Counted from the first letter of the stretch, positions 6,401 to 16,156 are shown. The stretch: 64,000 bases of DNA from Nitrosarchaeum sp. (GCF_025699065.1 NZ_JAILWF010000003.1:62001-126000); one strand, 5' to 3'. Made by a program: numbers and translations. The notes: generated by a model from the sequence alone, not told the origin.

Positions 6401-6733
6401 CTATCTGGGAAAATAAAATATTACTGCAACTCCTACAAGAACAATTATCGAACCTATTATCTCAAACCTATCTGGCTTTTTCTTATCAATCCAATAACCC
6501 CAAACTATTGATGATACGACAAAAATTCCACCGTATGTTGCATAGACTTTACCAAAATTTGCAGGTTGCATTGTCATGACAATTCCATATGAAAACAAAA
6601 TCAATGCTCCAACCAACCCAAATATCTTTCCCTTGTGATCTCGCAATACTTTCCATATAAGATAACCTCCACCAATTTCCAATAACGATGCAAACAAAAA
6701 TAATCCCAAAGTAGAAAAGATTACTTCGACCAA
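6401..6733 (-). CDS. YnfA/UPF0060-type four-helix membrane protein, copy 2
   Basis: A 110-residue, four-helix inner-membrane protein with the YnfA signature: EIGGGYLIW in helix 1, [12 protein letters not shown] in helix 3, [17 protein letters not shown] before helix 4. Members resemble small multidrug resistance (SMR) transporters in size and topology, but their substrate is not established. Its start overlaps the end of the upstream YnfA gene by 13 nt, so the two are translated together. Pairs of adjacent, unequal SMR-type genes often work as heterodimers with opposite topology, so the same is plausible here. Confidence 0.88.
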
Positions 6734-7086
6734 ACCTTTTCTCCTTTTCTTGGGTAGTAGAAAATTATCAAGACGCCAATCACTGCAATAACAGTTCCAA
6801 TAATGTCATAGTTGTCAGGATTTATGCCGTCAATTAACCATCCCCAGAATACAGACATTACAATAAAGACTCCTCCATAAGCTGCATAGACTCTATGAAA
6901 ATGAGTTTTCTGAAATGTTGGAACAATTCCATACAAAAACAATACAAAACCACCAACTGCACCTAACATCCAGCTAAAGTCTTCACGTAACCAAAGCCAG
7001 ACTAGATACCCCCCGCCAATTTCACAGAGACCAGCTAGAAAAAATAATAGAATTGAAGTGAAAATATTTCTTGAATTATTGCCCAT
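6721..7086 (-). CDS. YnfA/UPF0060-type four-helix membrane protein, copy 1
   Basis: A 121-residue partner of the next gene. It carries the same landmarks at equivalent positions: [34 protein letters not shown] and [22 protein letters not shown]. The N-terminus is longer and more polar ([11 protein letters not shown]) and the loop residues differ clearly from copy 2, so this is an old duplication. ATG at 7086. Part of the element cargo; no 18-bp box in front of it. A role in export of small cationic or metal-bound compounds is only a guess from SMR-like architecture. Confidence 0.88.
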
Positions 7087-7882: not shown

Positions 7883-9424
7883 TCAGATAACTTTGATTGT
7901 AACATAAGTGGATACTGATACATCTGGAATTTGGGTTCCTAGTAAAATCTTGTAGCTTCCTTGGTGGGCATTTTCGTCAACAAAAATAGTTACAGGTATT
8001 TGCATTGCTTGTTCTGAAATGTGTGTCGGTTCTAATTTTGTATTAATTTTAATCAGTTCAGAATTTGAGTTTCCAAATAAAACTACGTTCATACTTTGGC
8101 TTGTTTGAGGTGTTACAGTCACCAAAATTTCTTGTTGTTCTCCTTGTTTGATGACAATCTCCCCTTTTTCTGTTTCAAGTGAGATTGGAATTTTCACTGA
8201 GGTATCTAAGACTCCGATATTGTTTTCTACCCATTCTGTAAACCATACTTGTTTATCTTTAAAGGTAAATCCAAAACTTTGGGATATCCCACAATCAGTT
8301 AGCTCTCCACAATCTGACCAAGTGGGATTCTTTGATGGGATGTCATATTCAATTAATGATTCAGAATTTGGATTAAACACTGCCAATCTATTTCCTGTCT
8401 GCTGATTAAACCACAAGTTACCTTCTGAATCAAATGCATTCCAATATGGGCGAGTAATTGGAGTTTTAATCAATCCTGAAGCATTACCATAAGTCAAAAT
8501 GGACGGCTTTGAAGTGGTATACTCTAACACTTTTTTAGTGTCTGGACTGAATTTGTAAAATGAACTTCCTGCAGTATCTGCAATCCAAATATTCCCTAAT
8601 GATCCAACAGAAACACCATTTGGTGCTTGAATTGAATCTGGAAGAGTATGCTGTTCCACTTCTTGTGTGATGGAATTTGTTTTAACAAGAATTACCTCTT
8701 TTTGATATTTCCACATTACAAACCAAATGTTTCCTTTATCATCAATAACTGCTTGACTTGTAAAGAATCCTTCAGGAATTGAAATAGTAGCGTTAGTAAA
8801 TTTACCTTCATCTAATTTTTCATGATTTAAGATAACAATTTGGCTTCCTGTAAAATCATTAATCACAAAATTGTCATTATACAGTCCAATTTTCTGTGGA
8901 AATGATTTTTTTGTTTTTGCGGGAATTTGGAACTTTGAATATTTTTCTTCAGAGATTGAAAATTTCCACAATGATTCGTTTTTTTCATCAGTAAACCAAA
9001 TTTCATTATCTTCTGTATATGCTATCCCCCACATCATTGATGCACTATTTAATGACCATTGATCATTGTGATACTCTGTAAATAATTTTGATTCAGGATC
9101 AAACTTTGCAACTTTACCAGTATTTGTCTGAGTAAACCAAATTTTGCCTTCAGCATCAGAAATTATAGAAAGAGGCTGAGAACAAGGCGTGGGAATTTCA
9201 AACTCTTTGATATATTGATTTGTTTTTGCATCTGAACTTCCGCAATGTTGCAACCTTTCATTAGGACTGTAATTGTCCGCAGGAGTTCCAGTTAATTCTG
9301 GCATCACATTTGTTTCTGTTGTTTGTGAAATAGCCTCTTCAGGTAATTCATTAAAAACAATAATGACAAATAGGGTAGCAATCAAAAAAACTGTTCCTGC
9401 TACAAAATATAGATACTTTTTCAC
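7883..9424 (-). CDS. Membrane-anchored six-bladed propeller, streptogramin-lyase/NHL-like
   Basis: 513 residues: an N-terminal membrane helix (YLYFVAGTVFLIATLFVIIVF), then repeated blades with the Vgb-type pattern ISDAEGKIWFTQTNTGKVAKFDP, GNIWFVMW, LGNIWIADTAGSSFYKFSPDT, EGNLWFNQQTGNRLAVFNPN and KQVWFTEWVENNIGVL. A C-terminal Ig-like beta domain of about 100 residues follows (GEIVIKQGEQQEILVTVTPQ). Related propellers include virginiamycin B lyase, but antibiotic cleavage is not implied in this setting. Start is GTG at 9424. The promoter carries copy A of the 18-bp box (9463-9480), oriented toward this gene, with TTATAACTA 10 nt downstream. Confidence 0.78.
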   Translation of the reverse strand: MKKYLYFVAGTVFLIATLFVIIVFNELPEEAISQTTETNVMPELTGTPADNYSPNERLQHCGSSDAKTNQYIKEFEIPTPCSQPLSIISDAEGKIWFTQTNTGKVAKFDPESKLFTEYHNDQWSLNSASMMWGIAYTEDNEIWFTDEKNESLWKFSISEEKYSKFQIPAKTKKSFPQKIGLYNDNFVINDFTGSQIVILNHEKLDEGKFTNATISIPEGFFTSQAVIDDKGNIWFVMWKYQKEVILVKTNSITQEVEQHTLPDSIQAPNGVSVGSLGNIWIADTAGSSFYKFSPDTKKVLEYTTSKPSILTYGNASGLIKTPITRPYWNAFDSEGNLWFNQQTGNRLAVFNPNSESLIEYDIPSKNPTWSDCGELTDCGISQSFGFTFKDKQVWFTEWVENNIGVLDTSVKIPISLETEKGEIVIKQGEQQEILVTVTPQTSQSMNVVLFGNSNSELIKINTKLEPTHISEQAMQIPVTIFVDENAHQGSYKILLGTQIPDVSVSTYVTIKVI

Positions 9425-9462
9425 AAATCAAACTAGTATTGCCTAGTTATAACTTCTAATTA

Positions 9463-9480
9463 TGTTTGATAGTTCTACCA
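9463..9480 (-). promoter_or_regulatory. 18-bp promoter box, copy A
   Basis: On the minus strand it reads TGGTAGAACTATCAAACA, identical over 18 bases to copies B and C. A TATA-like TTATAACTA starts 10 nt beyond it, in front of the propeller gene (start 9424). The first 14 bases form an imperfect inverted repeat, TGGTAG-AA-CTATCA. Confidence 0.75.
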
Positions 9481-9501
9481 ATTTTAGTTATCAAGAATCT
9501 G

Positions 9502-9714
9502 TTAATATCTAGCTAAACATTCTATATCTTGATTTTTTTGATTATTTGATCTAGATCTTAAACGAAGCTTTGTCTGACAACATGGACATCGTAAATCTTG
9601 TGAAATTATAAAAATCGAGCATTGAGTACATCTTTTTTGTCCATTTCCGTATCTAGAACTTCCATTCATATGTCTTGATTTAAAATGTGAGCATATTCCT
9701 TTACACAAATTCAT
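9502..9714 (-). CDS. Small zinc-ribbon protein (70 aa), paralogue of 14730-14939
   Basis: Begins MNLCKGICSHFKSRHMNGSS and carries CTQCSIFIISQDLRCPCC: CxxxC at the N-terminus plus two further Cys pairs, then a basic tail (KLRLRSRSNNQKNQ). The layout suggests a treble-clef or zinc-ribbon that binds nucleic acid or protein. The protein at 14730 has the same order of motifs (CKGIC, GQKHCSKCSIFI, IRCPCC). Box B of the shared promoter motif lies 43 nt upstream, with TTAATTAAT at the TATA position. The family is common in thaumarchaea but, to my knowledge, without a known role. Confidence 0.8.
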   Translation of the reverse strand: MNLCKGICSHFKSRHMNGSSRYGNGQKRCTQCSIFIISQDLRCPCCQTKLRLRSRSNNQKNQDIECLARY

Positions 9715-9756
9715 GTTGAGTAATTCATCTCATTATCCATTAATTAATGCTAATCT

Positions 9757-9774
9757 TGTTTGATAGTTCTACCA
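9757..9774 (-). promoter_or_regulatory. 18-bp promoter box, copy B
   Basis: Minus strand TGGTAGAACTATCAAACA, followed after 9-10 nt by TTAATTAAT; faces the zinc-ribbon gene starting at 9714. On the plus side it sits just upstream of TTTTTAGTA, the best TATA candidate of the divergent gene starting at 9809, so it could also affect the sensor/regulator pair. Confidence 0.75.
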
Positions 9775-9808
9775 ATCATTTTTAGTAGGTGAAAAATTAT
9801 CTAATATC

Positions 9809-10192
9809 GTGCAAAAAACTACTCTTAATAATAAACAAAAATTCAATATTCTTATTTTAATTACTGGCGTGCTTATGGCAATTAGCATACCTGTCTTTTT
9901 GCCTCATTTTCTTCATGGTCATGGAGTTCATACAGGGATTCACCTAGCCAGCATCTCACTTGGTTCTTTTCTTTCTGTTATAGGAGTGATGACATATCTA
10001 GAATACAAAACAAAAAGATTGTTGTTAGTGTTTTTTGCATTTGCAACTATAACAATAGCTGAAACATTATCTGCACTAAATATCATATTTTTGTTTTGGG
10101 CATCTTATTCAAGTATTGACTCTGTAATTACCCATTTGCTGATACTTATGATGTTGACCTTTTTTTCTATAGGGATTTTTAAGAGAGATTGA
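9809..10192 (+). CDS. His-rich four-helix membrane protein (candidate sensor)
   Basis: 127 residues with four predicted membrane helices. The loop between helices 1 and 2 contains five histidines (PHFLHGHGVHTGIH), which would face the membrane surface and could bind a metal ion. GTG start at 9809. It ends 1 nt before the winged-helix regulator gene (10194), so the two form an operon. Pairs of a small four-helix protein with a winged-helix protein are common in archaea. The sensor role is inferred from that pairing and the His cluster, not shown. Confidence 0.7.
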   Translation: MQKTTLNNKQKFNILILITGVLMAISIPVFLPHFLHGHGVHTGIHLASISLGSFLSVIGVMTYLEYKTKRLLLVFFAFATITIAETLSALNIIFLFWASYSSIDSVITHLLILMMLTFFSIGIFKRD

Positions 10193-10193
10193 T

Positions 10194-10700
10194 ATGATGA
10201 TAAAATCACTCAAAAGAAAAACTATTCTGCAAATAGTGGAATCAAATCCAGGCGTGGGGTTTGTCGATATTCAAAAACATACAGGTTATGCTAACGGAGT
10301 TCTTAGTCATCATTTGAAAAGATTGGAAAATGAAGGACACATTAGGATAAAGCATGGAAAACGTAAGATTTGGATATTTTCTTCTATTGTGAATACTGAT
10401 AATGATAATCTTCTAATTTTTTTTAGAAAAGAAACATGTCAAAAAATTCTGCTTTTTCTTTTAGATGTTAAAATTGCAACCTTTAGTCAAATACGTGATG
10501 CAGTTGAAAAAAGTCCTAGTACAACTTCAGTTACTATGAAAATGTTGCTTGGAGAAAAATTGATAAGAAAAATTTATGGATTTCCTTTAAAATATGAATT
10601 AGAAAATTACGAAAAAACTTTACAAGTAATTGAAACAATAAAACCATCTAATGTTGATGTACTAAAAGACAGATTTGCAGATACTTTCTCTTATTATTGA
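10194..10700 (+). CDS. Two-domain winged-helix transcription regulator
   Basis: 168 residues. Domain 1 (about 5-70) is a classic winged helix: VDIQKHTGYANGVLSHHLKRLENEGHIRIKHGKRKIW, of ArsR/MarR-like type. Domain 2 (about 80-150) repeats the fold: LLFLLDVKIATFSQIRDAVE then SPSTTSVTMKMLLGEKLIRKIYG. No obvious metal-binding Cys cluster is present, so any signal more likely comes through the membrane partner encoded immediately upstream. It is the best candidate to bind the 18-bp boxes, four of which lie within 2 kb of it. The link is inference from position and from the dyad symmetry of the box. Confidence 0.85.
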   Translation: MMIKSLKRKTILQIVESNPGVGFVDIQKHTGYANGVLSHHLKRLENEGHIRIKHGKRKIWIFSSIVNTDNDNLLIFFRKETCQKILLFLLDVKIATFSQIRDAVEKSPSTTSVTMKMLLGEKLIRKIYGFPLKYELENYEKTLQVIETIKPSNVDVLKDRFADTFSYY

Positions 10701-10718
10701 TTTTTTAATTCCAATTAA

Positions 10719-10736
10719 TGGTAGAACTATCAAACA
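10719..10736 (+). promoter_or_regulatory. 18-bp promoter box, copy C
   Basis: TGGTAGAACTATCAAACA on the plus strand, identical to copies A and B, followed after 8-9 nt by ATATAATTT and then by the gene starting at 10777. It lies in the 76-nt gap after the winged-helix gene. Confidence 0.75.
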
Positions 10737-10776
10737 ACAGAGACATATAATTTAGTGATCTAGTAGATTGCAAACA

Positions 10777-11061
10777 ATGTCTGATTTTATAAAAAACAAC
10801 AAAACTACAATTCAAGTGTTTATTCTGATAATATCGATAGGGTCTGGTCTGCTTGTTTATCTTACATGGTATGTGTCACCTGACGAGATTACTGAAAGAG
10901 TTAGAGTAATTGCAAATACTGAAAATGGATGTATCGTTGAAACCATGGATAACTTTGCAATAAACATTGGTTCATGTGATGCACAATCTGGAGAAACCAT
11001 AGTTGCTACATATGATGCAAAAATTAAAGAACGCGCACTACTGATGAATCCTACAGGTTAG
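10777..11061 (+). CDS. Small membrane-anchored protein with Cys pair, unknown
   Basis: 94 residues from the ATG at 10777 (a TTG three codons upstream is the alternative). One N-terminal helix (TTIQVFILIISIGSGLLVYLTW) is followed by a compact outward domain with RVIANTENGCIVETMDNFAINIGSCDAQSGETIVATYDAKI. Two cysteines flank a beta-rich core and may form a disulfide outside the cell. Small proteins of this pattern are, from memory, seen in other thaumarchaea, without known function. Promoter contains box C. Confidence 0.72.
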   Translation: MSDFIKNNKTTIQVFILIISIGSGLLVYLTWYVSPDEITERVRVIANTENGCIVETMDNFAINIGSCDAQSGETIVATYDAKIKERALLMNPTG

Positions 11062-11119
11062 TTACATATTCAACATGAAATGACGTTCCAAATGTTGTTT
11101 TTTATAAAATATAACATAC

Positions 11120-11137
11120 TAGTAGAACTGCCAAACA
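11120..11137 (+). promoter_or_regulatory. 18-bp promoter box, copy D
   Basis: TAGTAGAACTGCCAAACA, differing from copy C at positions 2, 11 and 12. TTATTAAAG begins 10 nt after it and the cupredoxin gene starts at 11178. The same TTATTAAAG element occurs after copy E. Confidence 0.75.
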
Positions 11138-11177
11138 AACTGTATCATTATTAAAGTCATCTTAGAGTTTTATCATA

Positions 11178-12206
11178 TTGACATCTATTACACGTTTGAG
11201 ATTTTTTGGATTTGTGATATTGAGTGTTTTTGTGTTTATTATTTTTGATGCAAATTCCATTTCTGATTCTTACGCTGAAGAGATCACAATTAACATTCCA
11301 TTTGGAGCATATAGTCCCGAATTAAATACGCCTGCTGAGGTGTGGTATGATCCCCCAGTTGTATCTGCTACAGTTGGAGATACAATTACTTGGATAAATA
11401 ACGATAAGGAAGGTCATACTGTTACAAGCGGACAAGGTTCTGGAAGATTTGGTTGGATGAACAATGATTTTGGAATTTCTGATGGTTTGTTTGACAGTGA
11501 TAGATTCATGCCAGGTGAATCTTGGTCATACAAATTTGAAGAGTCAGGTACTTTTTCTTATTATTGTACAATTCATCCGTGGATGGATGGCGTTATAACA
11601 ATTAAAGAATCTGTATTAGATTATCCTCATGATGCATTTGGAAATAAGATAGAGTCATTTCCAGTTATCAAATTCACCCCTGACAATATTATTGAGGTAG
11701 ATCTTACGTGGGAACCAAATGTTATCAAAACACATGAAAAAGTACAATTCATCTATCAATTTTATAGTCGTGCAACAAATGCAAATCTTGCCAAAATGCA
11801 GTATGACTTTGTTTTAATTCAAAATGGCAAAGAGATCTATCGCGATACTGGACTTACACAGATTGGCGGGGACTATCGAAATTTTGTATTTGATAATACT
11901 GGCTCAATTATAATACGATTTGAGGGAATAGAAGGTACCGCAGGCACGATTAGTGATAAAACCATTGATGTCACCACATCAAAAGCTGCAAGAACTACTG
12001 AATTTTCTACTATTGTTTATGAGAACCAAGAAAAAATGGATCATGAGCAAATGCAAATCAAACCTGCACAGCGTTTGGAACTTTATTATGGATTGTATCC
12101 GATAATCATTTTAGTTCCAGGTGTGCTTTTTATTATCGCATTATTTTGGATGAAAAAATCAAAAAAGAATTCATCCCAGAACACATCTAGTTCCACACCG
12201 ATTTAA
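11178..12206 (+). CDS. Membrane-anchored cupredoxin (type 1 copper) with Ig-like C-terminal domain
   Basis: 342 residues. A signal or anchor helix (FFGFVILSVFVFIIFDA) precedes a plastocyanin-like domain (about 35-145). The type 1 copper ligands are visible: His80 in GHTVTSG, Cys130, His133 and Met136 in YYCTIHPWMDG. A second domain (about 165-270; VDLTWEPN, YDFVLIQNGKEIYRDTG, NFVF, IIRFEGIEGT) matches the last domain of the protein at 12890-14620. A C-terminal helix (YPIIILVPGVLFIIALFWM) anchors it again. Probable extracytoplasmic electron carrier or copper-binding protein. Start TTG at 11178; box D in the promoter; next gene begins 1 nt after its stop. Confidence 0.88.
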   Translation: MTSITRLRFFGFVILSVFVFIIFDANSISDSYAEEITINIPFGAYSPELNTPAEVWYDPPVVSATVGDTITWINNDKEGHTVTSGQGSGRFGWMNNDFGISDGLFDSDRFMPGESWSYKFEESGTFSYYCTIHPWMDGVITIKESVLDYPHDAFGNKIESFPVIKFTPDNIIEVDLTWEPNVIKTHEKVQFIYQFYSRATNANLAKMQYDFVLIQNGKEIYRDTGLTQIGGDYRNFVFDNTGSIIIRFEGIEGTAGTISDKTIDVTTSKAARTTEFSTIVYENQEKMDHEQMQIKPAQRLELYYGLYPIIILVPGVLFIIALFWMKKSKKNSSQNTSSSTPI

Positions 12207-12207
12207 C

Positions 12208-12885
12208 ATGGATAGTACACAAGAACTAAAAATTGTACGATGGAGTATCATCATTACAATCGTCATTAGTGTAATGAGTTTAGTAATTCATGATTTGATA
12301 TATTTTCAGACACATGAGAGTACTCCTTTAGATACCGCATTTATAGAATCTGGATTTGGTAAAATTTCATTTTCTAATAAGGTTCAAAGCTATTCGATCT
12401 CAAATGATATTTATCAAGACTATGAATTGGGATTTCAAATTTTAAAACCAAATGATGCTTGGAAAGTAATACCAATGTCTGATAGCATGAATGATGAAAG
12501 TATGGAGATTCTAAAAACTAAAGGTTTCCTTGATGGGATCTATTTGGAGCAAAATAACGAAAAGCATTTCATGATTGCTGTTTTTGATGTTTCACAAAAA
12601 TCATCTTTTGAACTGGCAAATTATGTCGATACACAAATTGAAACTATGAAAAATATCGCCGATGTGGATATTCAAATCAGGCAAGTATCTCAATCTAATG
12701 ATTGGGCTATTTTTGGAGCACATGCTCACTCTGAAAATATAGATGAATATGGCGAACAGCTTTTGTATTTAGAAAATAATCGACTATACATGCTTCAATA
12801 CACTGGTCTGTCTCCATCAGAGATGAAGACAGAAATAAAATCAGAATATCGCTCAATACTTGATTCTTTTAAAATACTGGGATGA
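12208..12885 (+). CDS. Membrane-anchored protein, PsbP/LpqN-like fold possible
   Basis: 225 residues with one N-terminal helix (WSIIITIVISVMSLVIHDLI). The outward part has DYELGFQILKPNDAWKVIP, then KSSFELANYVDTQIETMKNIADVDIQI and NNRLYMLQYTGLSPSEMKTEIKSEYRSILDSFKIL. This order (lipocalin-like start, helix, strand, closing helix ending in SFKIL) resembles PsbP-type or LpqN-type domains, but that is only pattern similarity. It lies 1 nt after the cupredoxin gene and 4 nt before the next gene, so all three are one transcription unit driven by box D. Confidence 0.7.
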   Translation: MDSTQELKIVRWSIIITIVISVMSLVIHDLIYFQTHESTPLDTAFIESGFGKISFSNKVQSYSISNDIYQDYELGFQILKPNDAWKVIPMSDSMNDESMEILKTKGFLDGIYLEQNNEKHFMIAVFDVSQKSSFELANYVDTQIETMKNIADVDIQIRQVSQSNDWAIFGAHAHSENIDEYGEQLLYLENNRLYMLQYTGLSPSEMKTEIKSEYRSILDSFKILG

Positions 12886-12889
12886 TTGT

Positions 12890-14620
12890 ATGTCCAAATT
12901 AGTAATGAAACATGCCTATTTTGGGTTGATTATGATATTGGTTGTAATATCTAGTATACCATCTCAAAATGTTTCTGGACATGGATTAGGAGGCGAGACT
13001 CATCCTCCAGTAACACTTGATGGACGTGATGTGACTTTGTCAATTAACATTTCCCCATCTACATTTGATCTCAATGATTTGGAAAGATACATCACAATTA
13101 ATCTAAATGAATCAAAAAGTCAAGGAGTAGTAGAACACGTTACCCTTATGTTTGAATTAAAAAAAGATGGCGAAAGAATTTTCAGAAGAATGTTTCATGA
13201 TGACTTGGGCAATCTAACCATTAAAGTAATTAATGATGGTTCAGATGAAATAAAAATCAAGGGAGATTTATCACCTGCTCTTGAATCATGGATGAGAACT
13301 GCAACAGAGCCAGTAACAATGACAGGTTCAGTTTTTAATTCAGGTGGGTTATATGAATACAAAATAGAAATCTTAACTGCTGATTCGGATTTTAATTTTC
13401 TTGACAAGAGACTAGAATTGATAGGGGCAATCAGTCTTGCTGAACACAATACGTATACAGTAGTTGATTCTGAACAAGCATCTCATATAGTAAATATAAT
13501 TTCATATTTTGATAAAATTGAAAACTTTGAGTTTAATTCAAACAAAATTTCATTTTCAATGCCTTTTGATTGGAATCAAGATCTTGAACAGATAAGTGTA
13601 GTACATCAAGAAGTTAGAATTCCAGAGGGGTTTTCGGAATTTCTCCATACAAAATATGATGTTAAAATAAATAATATTGTGATAAAAGATGATGCTGTAA
13701 CTATAGATGATTATTCATCAGACGGTAGAACAGTTCACGTTGTGATGAATCAAGAAGATCTAAAACAAATCAAAGAACAAGCAAAACAAAAATCAGATTC
13801 AGACATGTATTTTGAATTGGGTTTAAGCAATGATGTTGTTTTACCTTTGGTAGCAACCACTCCTGACATTAGATATCAGGCGTATCTATCTTGGAAGCCA
13901 GAAATAATCAGAGCTGGGGAGGATATAACCTTCTTTTTAGAAACAAAAGAACTGTTTACAGACAAATCTACCAAGAACATAGAATATGAGGTAGACATGT
14001 CATCAAACGGCACTTCTATCTATCACGAACGTATTTTTGGTTCTGTAAATTCTGAAACTTTAGATAAATTTCAATTCAAATTTCTTCCTGAACACATTGG
14101 AACCGTTAAATTAGATATATCAGACATTGGGGGAAATTCTCTTTCAGATGTTAATTTTTTGTTAGTTGTGAAGCCTCAAGAAATTACAAAATTTCCAATT
14201 ACATTGGAAAGTAAATCAAATACTTTGGATGGACAATATTTAGTTGATCTTACATGGTTTCCAAACACATTAGGTCTTGGAGAATCAGAATTTGTTATGA
14301 CCTTTTATGAAAAAGACTCCAAACTGCCAGTAAGAGGTGCAACGTATGATTTTGTGTTACTCAAAGATGGTTCTGAAATATATCGCAAATCTGGTATCGC
14401 AAATGCAGGTGGCACATTTGAAAACTTTGTATTTGTGGAAAAAGAAACAGGAGATCTTACCATAAGAATTGAAAATATTGCTGGAACTGATGAATATGTT
14501 GAAATTCCAATTAATGTTACACCAGAATTTCCACTAGGAATTTCAATTATGTTTATGATAATAATTTCAATACTAATGATATCAACAAAATATGTTAAAA
14601 ATTTTCAATATAATGTATAA
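12890..14620 (+). CDS. Secreted multi-domain protein with PEF-type C-terminal sorting tail
   Basis: 576 residues from ATG 12890. A signal peptide is followed by HGLGGETHPPVTLDGRDVTL and several Ig-like modules. The module YLSWKPEIIRAGEDITFFLE is repeated as YLVDLTWFPNTLGLGESEFVM with YDFVLLKDGSEIYRKSG and NFVF, which also occurs in the cupredoxin two genes upstream. The end reads VTPEFPLGISIMFMIIISIL plus a short basic tail, a tripartite pattern like PEFG/PEF-CTERM signals processed by archaeosortases; an archaeosortase-like gene lies at 60477. Third gene of the box D operon. Likely a surface protein that works with the cupredoxin; the exact role is unknown. Confidence 0.8.
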   Translation: MSKLVMKHAYFGLIMILVVISSIPSQNVSGHGLGGETHPPVTLDGRDVTLSINISPSTFDLNDLERYITINLNESKSQGVVEHVTLMFELKKDGERIFRRMFHDDLGNLTIKVINDGSDEIKIKGDLSPALESWMRTATEPVTMTGSVFNSGGLYEYKIEILTADSDFNFLDKRLELIGAISLAEHNTYTVVDSEQASHIVNIISYFDKIENFEFNSNKISFSMPFDWNQDLEQISVVHQEVRIPEGFSEFLHTKYDVKINNIVIKDDAVTIDDYSSDGRTVHVVMNQEDLKQIKEQAKQKSDSDMYFELGLSNDVVLPLVATTPDIRYQAYLSWKPEIIRAGEDITFFLETKELFTDKSTKNIEYEVDMSSNGTSIYHERIFGSVNSETLDKFQFKFLPEHIGTVKLDISDIGGNSLSDVNFLLVVKPQEITKFPITLESKSNTLDGQYLVDLTWFPNTLGLGESEFVMTFYEKDSKLPVRGATYDFVLLKDGSEIYRKSGIANAGGTFENFVFVEKETGDLTIRIENIAGTDEYVEIPINVTPEFPLGISIMFMIIISILMISTKYVKNFQYNV

Positions 14621-14654
14621 ACAAACAACATTTACAATAGATGTTTTAGAAAAC

Positions 14655-14672
14655 TAGTAGAACTACCAAACA
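14655..14672 (+). promoter_or_regulatory. 18-bp promoter box, copy E
   Basis: TAGTAGAACTACCAAACA, with TTATTAAAG starting 9 nt after it, upstream of the second zinc-ribbon gene (14730). Its dyad TAGTAG-AA-CTACCA is near-perfect. Confidence 0.75.
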
Positions 14673-14729
14673 ATCTATTGATTATTAAAGTTTAGAATTT
14701 TTTGTTATGTGTGGTGGAATAATCTAAAA

Positions 14730-14939
14730 ATGAATATGTGCAAAGGAATCTGTGAGCAATTCAAAGCCAAAGACTTCAAGGGAAAAATTAGATATGAAAT
14801 AGGTCAGAAACACTGCTCAAAGTGTTCTATTTTCATACTTTATCCAGAAATAAGATGTCCTTGCTGTAATTGTGTTTTACGCATAACGCCTAGATCAAAC
14901 AGATGTAGAAAAGATTTTCAGGAAAGAAAAAACAACTAA
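14730..14939 (+). CDS. Small zinc-ribbon protein (69 aa), paralogue of 9502-9714
   Basis: Starts MNMCKGICEQFKAKDFKGKI and continues GQKHCSKCSIFI and PEIRCPCCNC, then a basic tail. Motif order and spacing match the 70-residue protein at 9502-9714, so these are two diverged copies inside one element. I start at the ATG at 14730 to match the paralogue; an in-frame ATG at 14709 would add seven residues without similarity. Both copies have the 18-bp box in their promoters, which suggests that they serve the same response. Confidence 0.8.
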   Translation: MNMCKGICEQFKAKDFKGKIRYEIGQKHCSKCSIFILYPEIRCPCCNCVLRITPRSNRCRKDFQERKNN

Positions 14940-15008: not shown

Positions 15009-15482
15009 TCATGGCATCATATTATTGCCCATCATATTTCCCATCATCGTTGAATTATTCATTCCCATCATGTTCATCATTTGTTGATTACTCATCATGT
15101 GGTTCACCATTCCTTGATTCTGCATCATCATGCCCATCATCTGATCTCTCATTGCAGGATCATTCATCATGTTATTCATCATTGGTTGCATCATGGTACT
15201 CATGTGCTGATTATTTCCCATCATCATGTTGTGCATCTGGGTCATAGATTGTGGGTCATTCATCATAGTACTCATCCATTGATTCATAGCATTTGGATCA
15301 TTCATCATGGTTTGATGCCATCGATTCATCATTGCAGGATCATTCATCATTTGTTGCATTTGCTGTGGGGTCATGTGCATATAGTTGAAAGTCGAGGTAT
15401 TTTGAGAAATACCATAACCAATTCCAATTCCTACTACTAACACACCAACAATAATCCCAATGATTACGTACTGACTTGTCAT
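15009..15482 (-). CDS. Membrane-anchored Met/Asn-rich low-complexity protein
   Basis: 157 residues with one N-terminal helix (YVIIGIIVGVLVVGIGIGYGI) and then an outward domain with about 45 methionines. The unit MMNDP occurs four times, mixed with MMGN, MMNN and single His residues. Methionine-rich segments outside the cell commonly bind Cu(I), and the neighbours are a cupredoxin operon and a CDF-like transporter. A copper-binding role is therefore a reasonable inference. The opposite strand shows long Ser- and His-rich open frames, which are shadows caused by the repeated CAT/ATG triplets. Confidence 0.75.
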   Translation of the reverse strand: MTSQYVIIGIIVGVLVVGIGIGYGISQNTSTFNYMHMTPQQMQQMMNDPAMMNRWHQTMMNDPNAMNQWMSTMMNDPQSMTQMHNMMMGNNQHMSTMMQPMMNNMMNDPAMRDQMMGMMMQNQGMVNHMMSNQQMMNMMGMNNSTMMGNMMGNNMMP

Positions 15483-15538: not shown

Positions 15539-16156
15539 TCACTTCACAGATTCTTTCATGTCATTTCTCGCGTCTTTAATTATTGAGAATGATGAATGAA
15601 GAAAGAGACTTGCAATTATGCCAGCTACTATGAGATCGGGGTATGATGTTCCTGTCAAAAATACAAAACCTGCACCAACTATCACCAAAATATTACCTAA
15701 CGCATCGTTACGACTAAAGAGCCATACTGCACGTACATTAGCATCACCTTTCCTATGTGGAAGTAATATGATAACTGCAATTACATTAATCAAAAGTGCA
15801 CCAAAGCCAAAGATCCCCATCAATCCAGCTTCAGGAACATGCAGAATTTGTGTGCGATATATTGTATAACCAAGTACTGCTATTCCCATTACACCAAGAA
15901 AAATTCCTTGTAGAAGAGCTGAGCGAGCACGCAATTTCAACCCCCAACCTATTGCAAGCAATCCTAAGAATGTGATTGAACCATCACCTAGAAAATCAAG
16001 TGCATCAGCTTTGAGTGCTTGAGAATCTGCTAAAAATCCCCCAACCATATCTGCAATGCCATATCCTACATTGAGTAAAACAACTAACCATAATGCCCTA
16101 CGATATGCAGGTGTTATATGGGAAAGATCTTTTGGTAAATCATCATCGTCTGGCAT
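15539..16156 (-). CDS. Cation diffusion facilitator-like transporter, short form
   Basis: 205 residues, about six membrane helices. The N-terminal GGFLADSQALKADALDFLGD corresponds to the CDF metal-site helix, with Asp residues spaced as DxxxD; a second site is SRNDALGN in helix 5. The usual cytosolic C-terminal metal-sensing domain of CDF proteins (about 80 residues) is missing; the chain ends soon after helix 6. Predicted to export a divalent metal ion in exchange for protons. Specificity is unknown, and the missing His in the helix 2 motif (KADALD) hints at something other than canonical Zn. ATG at 16156. Confidence 0.82.
   Translation of the reverse strand: MPDDDDLPKDLSHITPAYRRALWLVVLLNVGYGIADMVGGFLADSQALKADALDFLGDGSITFLGLLAIGWGLKLRARSALLQGIFLGVMGIAVLGYTIYRTQILHVPEAGLMGIFGFGALLINVIAVIILLPHRKGDANVRAVWLFSRNDALGNILVIVGAGFVFLTGTSYPDLIVAGIIASLFLHSSFSIIKDARNDMKESVK

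Follow-up and report, generated by a model that had tools for sequence, protein, structure and literature searches.

A dyad box shared by five promoters in a Nitrosarchaeum gene cluster, and a membrane protein and double winged-helix regulator that may act through it

In a 64,000-nucleotide stretch of DNA from Nitrosarchaeum sp. (GCF_025699065.1 NZ_JAILWF010000003.1:62001-126000; hereafter the window), a short dyad box precedes five promoters, and the question is which protein reads it and in response to what signal. The energy metabolism of ammonia-oxidizing archaea depends on copper proteins, and the regulation of their Cop genes has been termed an open question (PMC7785015). An earlier note, made from the sequence alone, had proposed that one regulator co-ordinates the genes behind the boxes.

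Genome-wide box counts were obtained by pattern searches. The five copies (Table 1) lie where the earlier note had placed them to within 1-2 bases, each facing its gene; three are identical, over 17 nt, and the two divergent copies, described as having three changes or fewer, have three (11120) and two (14655). The inverted repeat around AA is present as the dyad TGGTAG-AA-CTATCA but is imperfect, with 5 of 6 pairs matching. Exact matches to the core GTAGAACTRYCAAAC occur at these five sites only in the whole genome (1,598,099 bases, 11 contigs), where 0.009-0.015 (about 0.01) would be expected, so that the by-eye statement of no further copy in the window now holds at genome scale, and the many scattered copies that had been named as counting against a common regulator are not found. 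Five uniformly placed sites would all fall within 5.2 kb with a probability of ~6e-10. When two mismatches were allowed, matches genome-wide equaled those of the reversed-pattern control in number; the lone one-mismatch match elsewhere in the genome (C4:98923) is within coding sequence and was set aside. Since the flanks are unlike between most copies, the boxes are not one duplicated segment; the two minus-strand copies (boxes 1 and 2) alone share a longer stretch, of 45 nt at 78%.

Table 1. Boxes, TATA-like elements and genes of the cluster (positions counted from the first nucleotide of the window)
Feature	Position	Strand	Sequence or remark
Exported propeller, Vgb-lyase family	7883..9424	-	
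TATA-like element of propeller	9446..9453	-	GTTATAAC
Box 1	9464..9480	-	TGGTAGAACTATCAAAC; faces propeller gene
Zinc-ribbon protein 1 (70 aa)	9502..9714	-	homologues in relatives
TATA-like element of zinc ribbon 1	9740..9747	-	TTAATTAA
Box 2	9758..9774	-	identical to box 1; faces zinc ribbon 1 and, reversed, the regulator operon
TATA-like element of regulator operon	9778..9785	+	ATTTTTAG; 3 nt past box 2; in conserved block
Four-TM membrane protein (mem; 127 aa)	9809..10192	+	proposed sensor
Double winged-helix regulator (wHTH; 168 aa)	10194..10700	+	proposed box binder
Box 3	10719..10735	+	identical to box 1; precedes small anchored protein
TATA-like element after box 3	10744..10751	+	CATATAAT
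Small anchored protein	10768..11061	+	start likely ATG 10777
Box 4	11120..11136	+	TAGTAGAACTGCCAAAC; precedes cupredoxin operon
TATA-like element after box 4	11147..11154	+	ATTATTAA
Cupredoxin with C-terminal anchor, operon gene 1	11178..12206	+	
225-aa anchored protein, operon gene 2	12208..12885	+	
586-aa exported protein, operon gene 3	12860..14620	+	similar proteins in copCD clusters
Box 5	14655..14671	+	TAGTAGAACTACCAAAC; precedes zinc ribbon 2
TATA-like element of zinc ribbon 2	14681..14688	+	ATTATTAA
Zinc-ribbon protein 2	14709..14939	+	start likely ATG 14730

A TATA-like octamer begins 8-10 nt past each of the five boxes, which is the distance originally given. Start codons follow the box by 39-43 nt in four cases (39 for the propeller) and by 58 nt in the fifth, and at these distances most transcripts probably have little or no leader. 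Box 2 sits between divergent genes. It faces zinc ribbon 1, as had been recognized, but the reverse-facing operon 9809-10700 had been overlooked: read in that direction, the box is 34 nt before 9809 and ends ~3 nt before the TATA-like stretch of the mem-wHTH operon.

The two zinc ribbons are 54% identical, and the repeated domains of the 586-aa protein have a homologue in the C-terminal domain of the cupredoxin (38% identity, one stretch). Elsewhere in the window are a Met/Asn-rich MMNDP repeat protein (15009-15482, minus strand), a possible metal binder that is much expanded in a relative (L063:5069-6466); a cation diffusion facilitator-like transporter (15539-16156, minus strand), kept beside the cluster in several relatives; and tandem, related small membrane proteins of 110 and 121 aa (6401-7086, minus strand), which relatives have too.

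Conservation was followed through the orthologues of the wHTH protein, which form a sharp group (E <1e-64, versus 1e-44 for the next relatives); 16 loci of this group, other than that of the window's nearest relative, were examined. In the region upstream of mem-wHTH in eight species, the box and TATA element, as the block GTTTGAnnGTTCTACCAATnTTTTTTATTA, are the best conserved stretch (0.92 versus a mean of 0.70), and the conserved side of box 2 is the one that belongs to this operon. Boxes recur in relatives before mem, the anchored protein, the cupredoxin operon, the zinc ribbons and the propeller. They also stand before a gene for an 88-aa TrmB-like wHTH protein, which is followed by an EamA transporter; here they form tandem arrays with an exact spacing of 23 bp (four in L065:8656-8741, two in L063:8921-8960). 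When 17 loci were scanned with a matrix, the sites reached scores of 13-32, against a null maximum of 11.8 over 515,652 positions; most of these sites precede genes for mem, wHTH, the anchored protein, cupredoxin, zinc ribbons or the propeller. In six loci (L066, L068, L070-L072, L074), mem and wHTH differ in order, spacing or orientation. Note also that L074:7568-8311 encodes a regulator orthologue fused to an extra N-terminal wHTH that resembles the 88-aa protein.

Across 200 genomes of the family, the strict box is found in 8/8 that carry a close wHTH orthologue and in 9/192 that do not (P=4e-10); with the reversed pattern as control, all genomes together gave 2 matches. Matches in G087, G192 and G153 are within coding frames, and those in G122 and G137, without clear relation to the regulon, were taken as chance. 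Distant orthologues (~40% identity) are accompanied by altered boxes, TTAGTACAACnATAAAAC and TGGTAAAATnnYAAAAC, at genes of the same kinds; of these variants, TTAGTACAACnATAAAAC is mostly limited to the cluster within its own genomes. With its exclusivity in the genome, its recurrence at the same genes across species and its linkage to the 10194-10700 protein, the proposal of one co-ordinating regulator is well supported.

That protein has a conserved tail, DRFADTFSY (modeled with low confidence), in addition to its two winged helices. It matches Pfam HTH_5 with 38.1 bits, above the cut-off of 22. Its scores are below the cut-offs for the NCBIfam metalloregulator model NF033788 (27.9 bits versus 55), the SdpR model (17.5 versus 100) and the MsvR model (35.7 versus 220, over the first 55 residues only), and by those cut-offs it is outside all three families; a structure search with the wHTH model returned generic winged-helix matches only. 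For all regulators whose recognition helix has SHH (14/14), TGGTA is followed by G or T; for those with another sequence, the base at this place is A or C in 25/31 and G or T in 6/31 (Fisher 2e-7, on hand counts that ignore relatedness). SHH occurs in two separate groups, the close orthologues and most Nitrosotenuis-like paralogues, and among the latter a change from SHH to SHY is accompanied by a changed box. This covariation is the best computational evidence that the 10194-10700 protein, and not another, would be the one that reads the box.

The partner gene encodes a protein predicted to be a four-helix bundle (pLDDT 90.6). His45, Glu85 and His109, one each in TM2, TM3 and TM4, are invariant in 29 members and, judging from helix positions, would lie at similar depth towards the outer side; this orientation is the one suggested by charge, and the metal site is putative. 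In many members the first outer loop carries a His cluster as well, PHxxHGHGxH, which several orthologues have lost. No SdpI domain was among the matches listed for the membrane protein, DUF7471 matches it weakly, and the search of the PDB with its model gave no convincing relative. The window's pair fits the group as defined here, namely a neighboring four-TM gene with the three invariant residues and a double wHTH.

In Nitrosotenuis-like genomes, the exact box is ~40 nt before a gene fusing CopC, CopD and a Vgb-lyase propeller into one protein of 905-928 aa (L076:5233-7950, L189:10001-12787); the C-terminal part of this fusion and the window's propeller fall into one Pfam family. In addition, many ammonia-oxidizing archaea have a paralogous mem+wHTH pair 2-8 kb from copCD. 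The box of this pair is approximately TTCGAnnnTTGWACCAnT in most Nitrosopumilaceae; the ACCA half-box was present upstream of the paralogous mem gene in all cases checked (30/30), and most copCD genes have a box of the TTGGTACAAA..CGAA type. In the window's genome the paralogue box TTGGTACAAATTTCGAA has an exact match once only, before copCD, and for this reason the two paralogous systems there appear, from their sequences, to use separate operators.

In N. viennensis, a motif obtained from a copper-limitation experiment, TTCSGSMTTTGWACYANT, precedes NVIE_014290/014280 and NVIE_014310, genes that rise under copper limitation, and occurs on either strand (PMC7785015). In G256, which we take from gene order and the motif, among others, to be N. 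viennensis, this motif is found ~37 nt before mem (locus L186, at 7898) and twice before copCD. Because the published motif thus precedes the paralogous mem and copCD, the window box is its counterpart at the paralogous cluster. The earlier note had recognized neither this link nor the paralogous copCD system, nor the pairing of the regulator with a membrane protein. Copper-limitation responses need not be alike: in N. maritimus, copCD reportedly falls, opposite to N. viennensis, so that sign and ligand may not be transferable. The literature searched held no expression report on N. maritimus genes near the cluster (the copper-limitation study cited in PMC7785015 lies outside that search).

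We consider it likely that the box is the operator of a membrane-sensor and double-wHTH module. Sequence gives us the box itself, with its exclusivity, conservation, linkage and covariation; binding, sequestration, ligand and activation are what we infer from it. As proposed, the 10194-10700 protein would bind the box and work with the four-TM protein of the same operon, which would serve as a metal sensor on the outward side of the membrane. Gain or loss of the metal, through the His-Glu-His set and often the outer-loop His cluster as well, would cause the regulator to be held or released; by analogy with SdpI, which holds SdpR at the membrane, control of the DNA-binding protein by the membrane protein is most likely. 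Once released, the regulator would bind the dyad directly upstream of BRE/TATA at the five promoters and recruit the transcription machinery, the targets being exported copper-type proteins (the cupredoxin operon and the CopCD-type propeller) and small zinc ribbons. From box 2 it would also control its own operon through a site abutting TATA.

Several other readings were weighed against this one. That the boxes are non-regulatory, arising as repeat-element copies or by coincidence, could draw on the three identical copies and the 45-nt stretch shared by two of them; we regard it as scarcely credible, given flanks that otherwise differ, sites at a fixed distance before promoters, boxes that persist in species with ~50-60% protein identity and the absence of an Rfam match. 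A more substantial alternative, which we still judge improbable, has the 10194 gene as merely a target, with the box read by the copCD-linked paralogous wHTH, by the 88-aa TrmB-like wHTH of relatives or by an unlinked protein. The tandem boxes at the 88-aa gene would suit this, as would four Nitrosotenuis-like genomes that carry this box at copCD without a close wHTH orthologue. An SHH-helix paralogue could account for three of those four, and in the other a regulator was looked for and not found. However, the copCD-linked paralogue in the window's genome has a different box, exact only at copCD, and the strict box both tracks the close orthologue over 200 genomes and covaries with its recognition helix.

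The sign of control and the nature of the signal leave more room for disagreement. ArsR-type wHTH proteins are mostly repressors, and a wHTH protein that blocks BRE/TATA access at every site and is freed on sequestration by the membrane protein, in the manner of SdpR/SdpI (where SdpI sequesters an autorepressor), would agree with the ~3 nt between box 2 and the TATA element of the regulator's own operon. We think repression throughout unlikely, though not to the same degree as the readings above, since the five forward boxes stop 8-10 nt before TATA, upstream of BRE, which is the usual archaeal activator site, and tandem upstream arrays better match activation. The earlier suggestion of activation rather than blocking is plausible for the five forward promoters, where the position of the box just upstream of BRE/TATA makes activation the probable mode; at the regulator's own operon, a box that abuts TATA would fit autorepression equally well. 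As to the signal, copper could be replaced, within an otherwise genuine regulon, by zinc, by redox or oxidative stress, or by a cue from a surface or biofilm. A CDF transporter lies in the cluster along with the zinc ribbons, the copCD region of N. viennensis, with NVIE_014290 in it, is also up in biofilms, and the N-terminal wHTH shows a weak resemblance to MsvR, which is a redox sensor. Repeated linkage to cupredoxins and CopC/CopD and the origin of the matching motif in a copper-limitation experiment argue the other way, and we rate a non-copper signal as rather unlikely. The operator module would respond to copper or another metal, most likely copper.

With this analysis, an operator and a regulator can be named and a candidate for the membrane sensor put beside them, all conserved in lineages ranging from soil to sea; a transcriptomic motif of one species that had lacked an explanation is now tied to a pair of genes. 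An earlier paper describes a motif of this class in that one species and names no binder or sensor for it (PMC7785015). For NVIE_014290, termed a putative cation channel (PMC12448741), this would mean a role as the sensor that partners a regulator. The literature searched made no mention of conservation across the order, of the regulator-sensor pair, of the second, paralogous regulon or of covariation in the operator, and the regulator, its pairing with a sensor and the order-wide conservation appear to be undescribed so far. A broader proposal, which we put forward tentatively and with less than even confidence, is an order-wide copper-sensing system of ammonia-oxidizing archaea, unlike described metalloregulators, in which a small four-TM His-Glu-His sensor and a double-wHTH factor with a diverging dyad operator would through duplication have given rise to paralogous regulons insulated from each other (copC-copD and the window's cupredoxin cluster).

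Among known systems, SdpR/SdpI of Bacillus subtilis is similar in pairing an ArsR-like regulator with a polytopic membrane protein in a self-controlled two-gene operon; it differs in that the window protein has two wHTH domains rather than one and that the Bacillus ligand is a peptide toxin. ArsR/SmtB metalloregulators (SmtB, CzrA) share the wHTH fold, with HTH_5 above its cut-off, whereas the window regulator has two tandem wHTH domains and its proposed sensor is a separate membrane protein. The likeness to MsvR of methanogens is in the N-terminal wHTH, with a match far below the cut-off. EarA (PMC13286277) and other archaeal activators also have their site just upstream of BRE/TATA, a comparison of positions alone. 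The N. viennensis motif, like the window box, precedes a mem+wHTH operon (NVIE_014290/014280), at 37 versus 34 nt from mem. The two are of similar length and their right halves are alike (TTCTACCAAT versus TTGWACYANT), whereas the left halves differ (GTTTGA versus TTCSGS); the window box does not match the published consensus over its full length, agreeing in the TACCAAT-side half only, with one change. The window box also differs from the N. viennensis motif in the genes that it serves, which form a second, paralogous cluster comprising the cupredoxin, the propeller and the zinc ribbons.
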